Positions 32,410 to 37,430 of a stretch of 48,897 bases of DNA are shown in pieces (the first letter of the stretch is position 1; each line of letters opens with the position of its first letter). The position numbers were made by a program, and so were the translations under genes. This DNA comes from Clostridia bacterium DTU084 (GTDB lineage: Bacteria > Bacillota > DTU084): assembly GCA_001512905.1 (NCBI GenBank), contig LFTB01000002.1, forward strand, positions 1 through 48,897, written 5' to 3'. The notes under the pieces are model-generated. The model was not told where the DNA came from. It was given only the letters and a program-made list of their open reading frames with translations, and did not search any database.

Positions 32410-32646
32410 CTACGGTGGATCGAATCCACTGCCTCCCCAAGGATGACAGCGCAATATTCTTTTGACAGCTTTCACTGTTCCGCGAAAAAAACCGTACTTT
32501 TCGATGGAAAGCTTTGCGTACTCGGAACAGCTTGGGCTGTACCGACAAGAGGGCGGAAAAAGTGGTGAGAGAGCTTTTTGATATAAGCGAATTAAAAAGA
32601 CAGCAGCCTCACCTAATCCTCTTTCCAAACTCCACTTTTTTTCCAC
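32410..32646 (-). CDS. yidD: YidD membrane protein insertion efficiency factor
   Basis: A protein of up to 78 residues with the family core FLIRLYQKALSPLFPPSCRY, SPSCSEYAKLSIEKYG, and CHPWGGSGFDPP. YidD helps membrane protein insertion by YidC. The start is uncertain: GTG at 32646 overlaps the rnpA end by 34 bases, and no in-frame start closer to the core has a better site. It is between rnpA and yidC as usual. Confidence 0.88.
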   Translation of the reverse strand: MEKKWSLERGLGEAAVFLIRLYQKALSPLFPPSCRYSPSCSEYAKLSIEKYGFFRGTVKAVKRILRCHPWGGSGFDPP

Positions 32647-32954
32647 AGGTAGATCATCTCCTGGGTGAGTTCCGCGAAGCTGCTCACTTTGGCTCTTCCT
32701 CTGACCACGTTGACGATCATGTAGCCGGGCTTGAAATTCGAGCTGTTCAGACGGTACAATTCCCGAAAAACCCTTTTCAGACGATTGCGAACCACTGCAG
32801 AGCCAACTTTTTTGCTCACCACAATCCCGATCCTGGTAGGCTGCTGGAAAGCAGGTGCCACATATAAAACAGCGCGCTTTCCAGTTATTTTCCGCCCTTT
32901 TTCGTAGACAAAGCGAAAATCCTGATTTTTTTTTAAAAACAGGGTGCTGCTCAT
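32613..32954 (-). CDS. rnpA: RNase P protein component
   Basis: A protein of 113 residues. RNase P motifs are KNQDFRFVYEKGRKITGKR near the start and RNRLKRVFRELYRLN, the conserved RNR helix that contacts precursor tRNA and the RNA subunit. It works with the RnpB RNA (not in the window). ATG lies 2 bases after the rpmH stop, so it is coupled to rpmH translation. Confidence 0.96.
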   Translation of the reverse strand: MSSTLFLKKNQDFRFVYEKGRKITGKRAVLYVAPAFQQPTRIGIVVSKKVGSAVVRNRLKRVFRELYRLNSSNFKPGYMIVNVVRGRAKVSSFAELTQEMIYLWKKSGVWKED

Positions 32955-33165: not shown

Positions 33166-33490
33166 GGAAAACCTGAAGCCTGGAGGTGCACCTGCAACGA
33201 GCCTGCAACGAGCAGCCTTTCCATATTAATTCCAATTAGGAAGCAGTTTAGTCTTTGCTTTTTAAAAAAGAAGGAAATCGACCCCGGAAAGCGAAATAAA
33301 ATTATTGGTCTCACGTTGGGGTGAGGCCTTCACACTGCATTTAATATTTCGAAATATTCGGTTAATTTGTTTGGTTGACATAAATTTCCAAATCTTTCGA
33401 CACGTAAACTGCTTTTAGTTGTCAGAACGCTAATGTTTTGTTATTATCTATAATAGAGGTTTTTTCGCTTTCAATAATTTTCTTTTTACC

Positions 33491-33837
33491 TGTGGATAAC
33501 TTGTGGATAAGCTTGTCTGCAGGCATTTTTATCTGCTAATCAGCTTTTTAAAAAGAGTTGTGGATAACTATAAAAGTCCAGCTAAATTCGTTTTTCAGAG
33601 CACAAAACCCGCATAAATTCGACAAATACTTATCCACAAAAGCATGTGGATATCCCTGTGGATAACCTTTGGATAACTATAATCCCACTTAAACAGCTTC
33701 CAGAAATTTTCCAGAAAAACATTGTGGATAAGCGGAAATCTCTGCTAAAACCTTTTTTCATAGTTCCAAATGCTGTATAATAGCACTTGCAGTTATCCAC
33801 AGTTTTTGTGGATAAGCTGTGAACAGTTTTTGGATAA
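33491..33837. other. oriC, upstream DnaA-box cluster
   Basis: Eight perfect 9-base DnaA boxes (TGTGGATAA or its complement TTATCCACA) start at 33491, 33502, 33559, 33630, 33657, 33723, 33793 and 33807. Near matches lie at 33645 (TGTGGATAT), 33668 and 33829 (both TTTGGATAA). Box orientation is mostly the same, with 33630 and 33793 reversed. The region lies in the gene-free gap between rpmH and the GHKL gene and forms one half of a bipartite origin. Confidence 0.95.
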
Positions 33838-33923
33838 CCGGGAAGAAATGTTGATATTTCAACGCTAAACAGGTTGTGTATAATTTTGTCCAGGCTGTGG
33901 ATTGTTTGAAGGGAGGCGAGGTA

Positions 33924-34733
33924 TTGTTTTCTCTTTTTCGAAAGAAGAAAGGGTTGATGCCAGAGATTTGCATCGCTATTTACGACTCTTTCGCTTGCTC
34001 TCCCAGGATAATTAATTGCCAGGAGAAAAACCTGGCTGAAGCCATTGAAAAGTTTTCACAGAAAATATATCAGCTCGCTCAGGAAAAGGGCGGAAAGATG
34101 CCCTTTTCAGTGATTAAGGAATTGGTGGAAAACCTACTCCATGCCAAGTTTGCAGATGCCACTGTGACCATTTATCCAGACGGAAACACCATCCGCTTTT
34201 CAGACCACGGGCCTGGAATAGAAGATCCCGAGAAAGCTTTTCAACCTGGTTTTTCCAGTGCCACCTCTTTTGAAAAGAAATATATAAAAGGGGTGGGCTC
34301 GGGGCTGCCTGTGGTCCTGGAAGCGCTGAAAAACTTGGGTGGAAAAATTGAAATCGAGGAAAATCTCCAAAGGGGGGCTGTTGTCACCATTTCTCTGGGG
34401 GAGACGGCGAGCACCTCGGAAGATTTTGAAATCGATCCTTCAACAGAAGAGCAGGACGGTCAAGCAGGAAAATCCCCGCCTGACCTCGAACAATATAATG
34501 CTCTAGATAATCCCCCGAAGCTAACTAAAAGACAACTGAGGGTTTTTCTGTTGATTACGGAAGAAGGGGAGGTTGGTCCCAGTTCTGCTGCAAGCAAACT
34601 GGGGCTCAGCCTTACTACTGCTTTTCGCGAACTGTCAGCTTTAGAAGAACTAGGTCTTGTCAAAACTACAGAAGGGGGAAAGCGGTGCCTTACTCCTTTG
34701 GGCATGAAACTAGTTCCTGAATACATTAAATAG
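33924..34733 (+). CDS. GHKL ATPase fused to winged-helix domain, gene next to dnaA
   Basis: A protein of 269 residues. The first 160 form a GHKL/HATPase_c ATP-binding domain: N-box ELVENLLHA (about 66-74), G1 DHGPGI (about 94-99) and G2 GVGSGLPVV (about 123-131). There is no histidine-phosphotransfer domain, so this is not a typical histidine kinase; relatives by fold are SpoIIAB, MutL and GyrB. A linker of about 30 residues, acidic and rich in Ser, precedes a MarR/ArsR-like winged helix (about 200-262, TKRQLRVFLLI, PSSAASKLGLSLTTAFREL, ALEELGLVKTTEGGKR). The TTG start at 33924 follows GGAGG by 7 bases. It starts 87 bases past the last DnaA-like box and 25 bases separate it from dnaA, so it probably shares the dnaA transcript. 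A replication or sporulation checkpoint role is inferred only. Confidence 0.78.
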   Translation: MFSLFRKKKGLMPEICIAIYDSFACSPRIINCQEKNLAEAIEKFSQKIYQLAQEKGGKMPFSVIKELVENLLHAKFADATVTIYPDGNTIRFSDHGPGIEDPEKAFQPGFSSATSFEKKYIKGVGSGLPVVLEALKNLGGKIEIEENLQRGAVVTISLGETASTSEDFEIDPSTEEQDGQAGKSPPDLEQYNALDNPPKLTKRQLRVFLLITEEGEVGPSSAASKLGLSLTTAFRELSALEELGLVKTTEGGKRCLTPLGMKLVPEYIK

Positions 34734-34758: not shown

Positions 34759-36087
34759 ATGAGCGATCAGAAAATGGACAACATGTGGAAGAAAATTATG
34801 GACCTAGTTAAGCAGAGGATAAGTCCTTCCAGTCTGGAAACCTGGGTGAACGAATGCAGCCCCCTTGCCATCGCCGATCAAAAGCTTTACGTTGAGGTCA
34901 CTGAAAACGCTACCGGAGATTGGGTGGAACTCCGCTACCTGCCAGTGCTGGTTGAAGCTTTGCGGTTAGTAGGCGGCCCTGAGTGGGAATTACGTTTAGT
35001 CTACCCCAACGAAAAAGAGGAAGTACTGCAGAGCATACAGGAAGCAGCTGCAGCAGACTCTCTGATTACTCCTTTAAACCCTAAATATACCTTTGAAACT
35101 TTTGTTGTAGGCAACAACAACCGTTTTGTCCACGCAGCAGCCCAGGCTGTGGCACAATCCCCTGGACATGCCTACAACCCCCTGTTTATCTACGGTGGTG
35201 TCGGTTTGGGCAAGACCCACCTGATGCACGCCATCGGCCATTGGATTTTGGAGCATAATTCTCAGGCCAAAGTGGCTTACGTTTCTTCTGAGCATTTCAC
35301 CAATCAGCTCATCAATGCCATCAGGGATCAAAAAACCGATGATTTCCGCAACGCTTACCGCACAGTAGACATCCTCCTGGTTGACGACGTCCAGTTTTTG
35401 GCAGGCAAAGAACAGACCCAAGAGGAATTCTTCCACACTTTCAACACACTCCACGGCGCAAGCAAACAGATCGTTCTGACCAGTGACCGTCCGCCAAAAG
35501 ATATTGCAACCTTGGAAGATCGGCTGCGCTCTCGTTTCGAATGGGGACTAATCGCAGACATCCAGCCGCCGGATCTGGAAACGAGAATAGCTATTTTAAA
35601 GAAAAAAGCTAACTTGGAAAACATGGATATACCAGGTGATGTTCTGGTTTACATCGCAGACCAATTCAGCTCCAACATCAGAGAGCTGGAAGGAGCTTTG
35701 GTCAAGGTTACAGCTCACTGCGCCCTGAAGCAGACGCCAGTCACATTGGAAGAGGCCAAACAGGTGCTGGCAGATATCCTGCCTGTTCAGAGGAAAACAA
35801 TCTCTATTGATCTGATCCAGCAAAAAGTGGAAGACTATTTCGGCGTCAGCGTTTCAGATCTGAAAGGCAAGAAAAGAACCCGGGAAATCGCCCATCCCAG
35901 GCAAGTTGCCATGTATCTGTGCAGAGAGCTGACTGACGCTTCTCTCCCTAAAATCGGCCAGGAATTCGGCGGCAGAGATCACACGACAGTCCTCCACGCC
36001 TGGGAAAAAATCAAAGCAGAGCAAGAGAAAAACGAAACCTTTTCCAACGAGCTGAAAGAGCTGATCCATCTGATCCAAACAGACTGA
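34759..36087 (+). CDS. dnaA: DnaA chromosomal replication initiator
   Basis: A protein of 442 residues with all four domains: an N-terminal helicase-loading domain, a linker, the AAA+ module (Walker A GGVGLGKTHL, Walker B ILLVDDVQFLAG) and the C-terminal DNA-binding domain with GRDHTTVLHAWEKI. It binds DnaA boxes, melts the origin and loads the helicase. ATG at 34759 is preceded by GAAGGT. It lies between the two DnaA-box clusters and is read in the same direction as dnaN and gyrBA. Confidence 0.98.
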   Translation: MSDQKMDNMWKKIMDLVKQRISPSSLETWVNECSPLAIADQKLYVEVTENATGDWVELRYLPVLVEALRLVGGPEWELRLVYPNEKEEVLQSIQEAAAADSLITPLNPKYTFETFVVGNNNRFVHAAAQAVAQSPGHAYNPLFIYGGVGLGKTHLMHAIGHWILEHNSQAKVAYVSSEHFTNQLINAIRDQKTDDFRNAYRTVDILLVDDVQFLAGKEQTQEEFFHTFNTLHGASKQIVLTSDRPPKDIATLEDRLRSRFEWGLIADIQPPDLETRIAILKKKANLENMDIPGDVLVYIADQFSSNIRELEGALVKVTAHCALKQTPVTLEEAKQVLADILPVQRKTISIDLIQQKVEDYFGVSVSDLKGKKRTREIAHPRQVAMYLCRELTDASLPKIGQEFGGRDHTTVLHAWEKIKAEQEKNETFSNELKELIHLIQTD

Positions 36088-36246
36088 CTTGTTGATAGAT
36101 TTGTGGAAAACCTGTGGAAAGGCTGTGGAAAATTGAAATGAATTTTTTTCCATCCACAAGGCCTGTGAGTACTGTGGACAACTATCCACAAATTTTTCAC
36201 AGGCAGCAAACACCTTTTCAGCTTGAAAATCAATCGTTTTTCACAA

Positions 36247-36280
36247 TTATCCACATATCCACAGGCCCTACTACTACTAC
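36247..36280 (+). other. oriC basal unwinding element (DnaA boxes plus DnaA trios)
   Basis: TTATCCACA (36247-36255) is followed at once by ATATCCACA (36255-36263), GGCCC, then CTACTACTACTAC (36268-36280). On the complementary strand the last is four 3'-GAT-5' DnaA trios. Tandem boxes, a GC-rich joint and trios are the arrangement of the Bacillus basal origin unwinding system. An A/T-rich stretch (TTTAAAATAAAAAA, 36291-36304) follows. The 36088-36317 gap also has CTATCCACA (36182-36190) and several TGTGGAAA near-boxes. Confidence 0.85.
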
Positions 36281-36317: not shown

Positions 36318-37430
36318 TTGAAATTTACGTGTAACAAAGACGTGTTGGCTAAAGCAGCGCAGATCGTCCATAGGGGAACCAAAGACATAGAGCTACCCAT
36401 TATGTCCGGAATTCTCCTGCGCACAGAGGGCGAACAATTAATTTTGGCTTCTACTGACACAGAAGAGGGAATTGAATGCAGGGTTCCCATCCAGTGCGAA
36501 ACTGAAGGCGGCGCCATTTTGGACGGCTATTATTTTACAGAGATCATCCGCAAAATGGCGGGCCCCAACATTTTGATCGAGCAAAACCAGCAGGACCACA
36601 CAGTCCGGGTTATGTCCGGTGAATCCTTTTTTGATTTGGTCTACATAGATGAAGAAGAGTTTCCCCAGTTTCCGCAAGTGGATGTGAACAGCACTTTCAC
36701 AGTCCCTCAAGCCCTGCTGAGGAAAATGATTGCCAAAATCATCCCGTCCCTTGCAGACAACGACACCCGGTACCTCCTCATGGGCGGACTAATCGAGGGA
36801 AGGGATGGGAACCTTAAGCTTGTTGGTACAGACAGCCACAGGCTCGCCATCGCAAGCAAGGAAGGCGCTTATCTTGAGGAACTTCCTTCTTTCAGCATTA
36901 TTCTGCACAAGAAGATGCTGGCAGAAGTGGCTGGGGTCTTGAATCAGGATGAAAAATCCACTGTTGAAGTGGCCATGGGAACCAATCATGTGGTTTTCAA
37001 ACTGCCAGGGGTTACCATCATCGCCAGAAAAATGGAGGGGGAATATCCCCAGTATGAGGCTGTAGTGCCCCAGGAATTCAGCACCACCCTTTTGGTTGAC
37101 AGACAGCAGCTGCTGGCAGCTGTGGACAGGCTGTCTCTTTTAGGGGTGGGAAAAGAGAGCACTCCCCTCATCCGCTTCCACATCGGCGACCAGCAATTGC
37201 TCCTTACCTCCCGGGATCAGACCAAAGGACAGGGAGAAGACAGGCTCTCCTGCGAAAAGGAGGGAGAGAACCTGGAGCTTTCTTTTAACGGCAAGTTTCT
37301 GCTGGACGGACTGCGGGCTCTTGAAGGGGAAGAAGTAAAAATAAAGTTTTCCGGCCCAATGAGCGCAGCCTTGCTCACAGATCCAGAGAGCGATGAGTTC
37401 AAATATGTGCTGATGCCCACCTTTGACTGA
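36318..37430 (+). CDS. dnaN: DNA polymerase III beta sliding clamp
   Basis: A protein of 370 residues in three similar domains (MKFTCNKDVLAKAAQIVHRG at the start, LPIMSGILLRTEGEQ, then YLLMGGLIEG and TDSHRLAIAS, ending YVLMPTFD). It forms the ring that tethers polymerases and mismatch-repair proteins to DNA. The start is TTG at 36318 behind AAGGGG. It follows dnaA after the 230-base gap that holds the second DnaA-box cluster. yaaA starts 13 bases after its stop. Confidence 0.97.
   Translation: MKFTCNKDVLAKAAQIVHRGTKDIELPIMSGILLRTEGEQLILASTDTEEGIECRVPIQCETEGGAILDGYYFTEIIRKMAGPNILIEQNQQDHTVRVMSGESFFDLVYIDEEEFPQFPQVDVNSTFTVPQALLRKMIAKIIPSLADNDTRYLLMGGLIEGRDGNLKLVGTDSHRLAIASKEGAYLEELPSFSIILHKKMLAEVAGVLNQDEKSTVEVAMGTNHVVFKLPGVTIIARKMEGEYPQYEAVVPQEFSTTLLVDRQQLLAAVDRLSLLGVGKESTPLIRFHIGDQQLLLTSRDQTKGQGEDRLSCEKEGENLELSFNGKFLLDGLRALEGEEVKIKFSGPMSAALLTDPESDEFKYVLMPTFD

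Follow-up and report, generated by a model that had tools for sequence, protein, structure and literature searches.

Position of the gene within the replication origin

The locus raises the question of what a protein combining an ATPase domain with a DNA-binding domain does when its gene lies inside a replication origin, directly before dnaA. The gene was examined in a stretch of 48,897 nucleotides from Clostridia bacterium DTU084 (contig LFTB01000002.1), referred to here as the window. The divergent flank of the origin is formed by rpmH (L34; 32957 to 33091, minus strand), after which comes rnpA (32613 to 32954, minus strand). A box scan with at most one mismatch placed 12 DnaA boxes, 8 of them exact, in the upstream half of oriC (33491 to 33883) and 6 in the downstream half (36102 to 36263), with 0 to 2 boxes per kb in the rest of the window. 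The GHKL-winged-helix gene starts 41 bp past the 12-box cluster and occupies 33924 to 34733 on the plus strand (269 amino acids; TTG start at 33924, stop at 34731 to 34733). A Shine-Dalgarno sequence, GGGAGG (33911 to 33916, plus strand), lies 7 bp 5' of the start, and a similar one is present at the orthologue of Firmicutes bacterium UBA5473 (L003 in G001). dnaA follows on the same strand, 25 bp 3' of the gene (34759 to 36087, ATG at 34759), and then dnaN (36318 to 37430, plus strand). The gene coordinates, the 25-base gap and the position between two DnaA-box clusters given in the initial annotation were therefore borne out.

The gap between dnaA and dnaN carries a canonical unwinding element (BUS) of the DnaA-trio type, TTATCCACA-TATCCACA-GGCC-CTACTACTACTAC (36247 to 36280, plus strand), in textbook form with four CTA trios. 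BUS-like elements were also seen at loci L002, L063 to L066 and L071, while the pattern used for the window gave no match at L062 and L067 to L070. The arrangement of boxes and BUS is as described for bacterial origins, and like the dnaA-dnaN oriC of B. subtilis, the origin is bipartite, with boxes on both sides of dnaA and the BUS in the dnaA-dnaN gap (PMC8287927). It differs from the B. subtilis origin in the extra gene between the upstream boxes and dnaA and in a composite element within the upstream half.

Domain structure of the encoded protein

The protein consists of a conserved N-terminal hairpin (IAIYDS...PRI) with a GHKL domain (33957 to 34406), a disordered linker (34407 to 34514) and a winged helix (34515 to 34709), all on the plus strand. 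The linker varied in length in the orthologue alignment and had a pLDDT below 50 for residues 162 to 193. Residues 62 to 159 matched Pfam HATPase_c (E=8.4e-13, 49.2 bits against a cut-off of 26.4), and the N box (residues 65 to 74, KELVENLLHA), G1 box (94 to 99, DHGPGI) and G2 box (123 to 129, GVGSGLP) within the GHKL domain are intact, as previously proposed. On the strength of this match and the three boxes, the protein was assigned to the GHKL (Bergerat-fold) ATPase superfamily. An AlphaFold2 model of the N-terminal/GHKL part, built with 38 orthologues, had a pLDDT of 86.

Residues 200 to 260 form a winged helix, a pattern also present in the predicted structure, with a nearly invariant recognition helix at about residues 228 to 242. 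The best Pfam match over the cut-off was HTH_IclR (E=3.2e-05), and other winged-helix models, including MarR (E=0.0066), fell below it; the earlier label "MarR-like" was thus loosely right. No effector domain of the IclR, MarR or TrmB type was found by Pfam, the remainder of the protein being GHKL. The claimed absence of a kinase phosphotransfer part also held, as the Pfam search found neither HisKA/DHp nor another phosphotransfer domain with a phospho-acceptor His. No family covering the full length of the protein was found in Pfam or NCBIfam.

Distribution and linkage to dnaA

Orthologues were collected from 53 genomes, one in each, belonging to about 14 families of one phylum; some are partial, with the contig ending inside the gene (e.g., L070 and L158). 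In 50 of the 53, the gene immediately precedes dnaA in the same orientation; the contig ends first in the other 3, and in none was the gene located elsewhere, so that homologues are not scattered away from dnaA. Among 61 relatives, 10 had a full-length orthologue, followed immediately in every case by dnaA in the same orientation. A profile search of 398 genomes of the phylum returned 39 carriers with one gene apiece, 38 of which adjoin dnaA, the contig of the 39th stopping after the gene; 14 further carriers came from one class (12 adjoining dnaA, 2 at contig ends).

The gene was present in all 15 near-complete genomes of one class and in 11/12 of a second, the dnaA contig of the twelfth stopping short of the place where the gene would lie. 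A third class had the gene throughout families f17, f95 and f148, with the remaining families lacking it. Non-carriers with readable flanks had an ordinary rnpA-oriC-dnaA order, with an rnpA-dnaA interval of 364 to 1237 bp. No remnant of the gene was detected upstream of dnaA by profile in the 26 non-carriers that could be read in two classes with carriers, or by tblastn in other non-carriers.

On the DnaA tree, the distribution of carriers needs 5 changes, compared with 27 when labels were shuffled. The tree of the GHKL-winged-helix gene groups by family, which fits the prediction of vertical descent. The simplest reading of these patterns is vertical inheritance with losses, possibly from a single origin of the gene. 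A viral or mobile origin was considered and set aside, as the pattern search used found no relatives in IMG/VR. In three f36 genomes (G036, G339 and G296; L048, L051 and L070), the adjoining dnaA is extremely divergent, with about 34% identity and a tree branch of 5.6; the GHKL-winged-helix gene is ordinary despite this, and Spo0A was undetected in the same genomes.

A composite element in the upstream half of the origin

When carrier and non-carrier origins were compared with DnaA boxes masked, the top k-mer was CCAGCTAA. In the window it forms part of a composite element (33559 to 33585, plus strand), in which the DnaA box TGTGGATAA is followed after 10 bp by CCAGCTAA (12 bp to AGCTA); this element matched once in the window and in none of 100 shuffles. 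In its general form, TGTGGATAA followed after 10 to 12 bp by AGCTA(G/A), it was found in 31/51 gene-positive origins and 1/51 gene-negative origins, whereas shuffles keeping the boxes yielded on average 0.7 such origins of 51 and never more than 3. Nothing comparable was seen for AGCTA after the TGTGGATAA box at other spacings. Taken alone, the k-mer barely exceeded the best k-mers obtained when non-carriers were split at random. The strong evidence for the element is the box-to-AGCTA spacing, which had played no part in k-mer discovery. Eight f17 genomes outside the discovery set all carried it (8/8).

The element occurs in families f1, f13, f40, f49, f17 and f62 (inverted in f62); the corresponding position is taken by CCCTGCTA(A/G)A in f2 and in one genus of f116. 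It was not seen in origins of f26, f28, f81, f95 and f148, and f36 has degenerate forms only. At the family level, Fisher's test gave p of about 4e-4, assuming some 45 non-carrier families and leaving kinship uncorrected; common descent of the genomes inflates the motif statistics as well as those for linkage. Two more C(A/T)GCTA(A/G) sites lie in the upstream half of the window origin, at 33533 and 33742, with a spacing to the box unlike that of the main site.

The element is a candidate binding site of the GHKL-winged-helix protein. It is also conceivable, if somewhat doubtful, that the element, though real, serves DnaA or another origin protein and merely shares its ancestry with the gene, a reading compatible with others discussed below. 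The five positive families in which it was not seen favor this, as does its spacing, which resembles the 10 to 13 bp between DnaA box and DnaA-trio in a BUS (PMC8287927). An identity as a DnaA-trio BUS was rejected, however, since the box has the opposite orientation, no trio repeats follow it, and a separate, canonical BUS lies past dnaA. These features, together with its absence from 50/51 gene-negative origins, 15 of them from a class that also holds carriers, argue against assigning the element to DnaA or another origin protein.

Operon arrangement and conservation of residues

Wherever the region 5' of the gene could be read in carriers, it contained DnaA boxes, and no box fell between the gene and dnaA. 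The distance to dnaA ranges from -4 to 308 bp, with a 4-bp overlap in five genomes (L041, L062, L064, L065 and L066). As such overlaps occur in several lineages, the gene appears to be the first of the dnaA operon, and dnaA is most simply expressed behind it. The spacing suggests that transcription of dnaA would begin at promoters located within the upstream box cluster or 5' of it. A candidate operon promoter, TTGTCA-17-TATTAT (33419 to 33447, plus strand), lies 5' of the boxes as a pattern match only, matches of this kind in the window being no more numerous than in shuffles. Family f49 likewise has a conserved stretch resembling TTGCCA-N17-TAATAT, read by eye, 5' of the boxes. A shared upstream GCTAATAT/ATTATAGCC motif was considered as an operator and rejected, as it probably represents -10 boxes along with the promoter or start of rpmH.

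Orthologues of different families share 34 to 73% identity, which places the gene far beyond chance. In 39 sequences, the ATP-site residues N70, D94, G96, G98, G123, G125, G127, N147 and G151 are invariant where present, so the ATP site has not been lost. E66, which we take to be the counterpart of the hydrolytic Glu in GyrB, MutL and SpoIIAB, is retained except in family f95, where both aligned sequences have Ala, a point that weighs against the function proposed below. In the winged helix, S229, R235 and L240 of the recognition helix and G252-K253-R254 of the wing show no variation in 39/39 sequences. Such constancy of the recognition helix between families suggests a conserved target site.

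The same evidence bears on a further alternative, which we consider unlikely: that the protein serves other genes as a transcription factor, or has mild autoregulation as its sole role at the origin, its linkage to dnaA being old and selectively neutral in a very stable part of the chromosome. The rpmH-dnaA-dnaN-recF region is syntenic in any case, and the element is missing from some carrier families. Against this stand the lack of any relocation across deep lineages (50/53 linked, 3 uninformative), the 4-bp overlap with dnaA in some lineages, and the near-invariant recognition helix, which would be unusual if targets varied.

Relationship to known GHKL proteins

The best Foldseek matches of the N-terminal/GHKL model were the CA domains of histidine kinases. 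The protein resembles these (e.g., HK853, WalK and CpxA) in fold and in its G1 and G2 boxes; it differs in having no DHp/HisKA, phospho-acceptor or sensor and in an N box like that of MutL and GyrB. It resembles SpoIIAB/RsbW (HATPase_c_2) as a small GHKL protein with a Glu before the N-box Asn and a GPGI...A.QP stretch, but has a winged helix, a histidine-kinase-like G2 box and no partner operon, and scores below the family cut-off.

The latter likeness leads to a second reading, in our judgement quite improbable, of the protein as a switch directed at another protein, or a Ser/Thr kinase, in the manner of SpoIIAB/RsbW, with DnaA or a sigma factor as partner and the winged helix as an origin anchor only. 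Anti-sigma F factor structures gave profile matches at E of about 5e-4, three orthologues matched HATPase_c_2, and the Glu is four residues before the N-box Asn, presumably as in SpoIIAB. The NCBIfam model for anti-sigma F factor (TIGR01925) also matched, at E=3.8e-4 but with only 20.4 bits against a cut-off of 135. The N-box His is at N+3 rather than at N+4, where we take it to be in SpoIIAB, none of the adjoining genes is a partner of the anti-anti-sigma type, and the best structural matches are to histidine kinases instead. Less probable still is an ATP-operated DNA clamp of the GHL type (with N-terminal dimerization like MutL, GyrB or topo VI) serving origin topology or repair rather than regulation: the N box KELVENLLHA is close to KELVENSLDA of MutL, which was among the better sequence matches, but the transducer and dimerization domains of MutL/GHL proteins are absent (only linker and winged helix follow the ATPase domain in Pfam and the model), the G2 box is of the histidine-kinase-like GxGxGL form, and orthologues are mostly only about 270 to 330 amino acids long.

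Among the 50 structural matches listed, the only one spanning the whole query was 3lmm (TMq 0.40, 13% identity). This COG2865 protein (DIP2311, PDB 3lmm) likewise has a GHKL-type domain followed by a winged helix, its make-up presumably being AlbA_2, HATPase_c_4 and winged helix, whereas neither AlbA_2 nor HATPase_c_4 was matched by Pfam in the present protein. We know of no COG2865 protein located at dnaA. As the pairing of a GHKL-type domain with a winged helix already exists in COG2865, the domain combination is not new.

Sporulation and other replication factors

The initial annotation had proposed a regulator of replication initiation or a sporulation checkpoint. Both the operon arrangement and the origin element that accompanies the gene strengthen the replication half of this proposal, whereas the sporulation half found no support. 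Spo0A was found in 35/39 carriers and was undetected in four, including G036 (98% complete) and G040 (96%), and many relatives with Spo0A lack the gene. Because the gene persists in carriers without detectable Spo0A, sporulation does not appear to be its reason to exist.

YabA was found above the cut-off in 0/39 carriers and 25/41 non-carriers. The gene as a replacement for YabA was nevertheless rejected, since YabA is also missing from gene-negative relatives (0/73 genomes of the class holding both carriers and non-carriers), indicating a phylogenetic pattern. DnaB_2 (DnaD/DnaB) was found in 9/39 carriers and 33/41 non-carriers, with ancestry uncontrolled; this skew may reflect ancestry or a different helicase-loading route.

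Proposed function and significance

On balance, the protein probably binds DNA under the control of ATP and in this way regulates dnaA expression, origin firing or both. It would be dedicated to the origin and encoded, in many Bacillota lineages, by the first gene of the dnaA operon. In the mechanism proposed from these sequences, the GHKL domain would most likely bind ATP, with hydrolysis possible where E66 is kept, and the nucleotide state would shift dimerization or the placement of two winged helices. These would bind the upstream half of oriC, where the most plausible site is CCAGCTA(G/A)A, roughly a helical turn away from a DnaA box, and so tune transcription of the dnaA operon and/or DnaA assembly, with a predicted influence on initiation in either direction. 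Counting against a regulator, about half of the positive families have no element or variants only, although the recognition helix is conserved there, and linkage to dnaA can last without a functional tie.

More speculatively, and rather unlikely as it stands, the system may represent a new class of initiation switch, in which an ATP-sensing GHKL-winged-helix protein co-expressed with DnaA recognizes CCAGCTA(G/A)A at a distance of some one helical turn from the box and acts as a gate for orisome assembly, protein and site being co-inherited as an origin module in deep Bacillota lineages.

No description of the protein was found in the open-access literature searched. What is new is where the gene sits, the origin element associated with it, and a linkage to dnaA that holds lineage-wide. 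Lineages differ in their regulators of DnaA, the majority of which have been described in two model bacteria. YabA, Soj, SirA, Spo0A, Rok and SeqA would share with the present protein the job of controlling DnaA or oriC; to our knowledge, none of them has a GHKL domain or is encoded by the first gene of the dnaA operon. Nor do we know of an earlier case of a GHKL ATPase fused to a DNA-binding domain working at a bacterial origin, and if the proposal is true, this would be the first. The candidate site yields a short, testable protein-DNA prediction. The protein is a strong candidate for the control of when carrier cells copy their DNA, and a gene that stays locked to dnaA throughout several deep classes and has a candidate site of its own in the origin would offer a direct handle on replication timing in uncultured, deep-branching Firmicutes.
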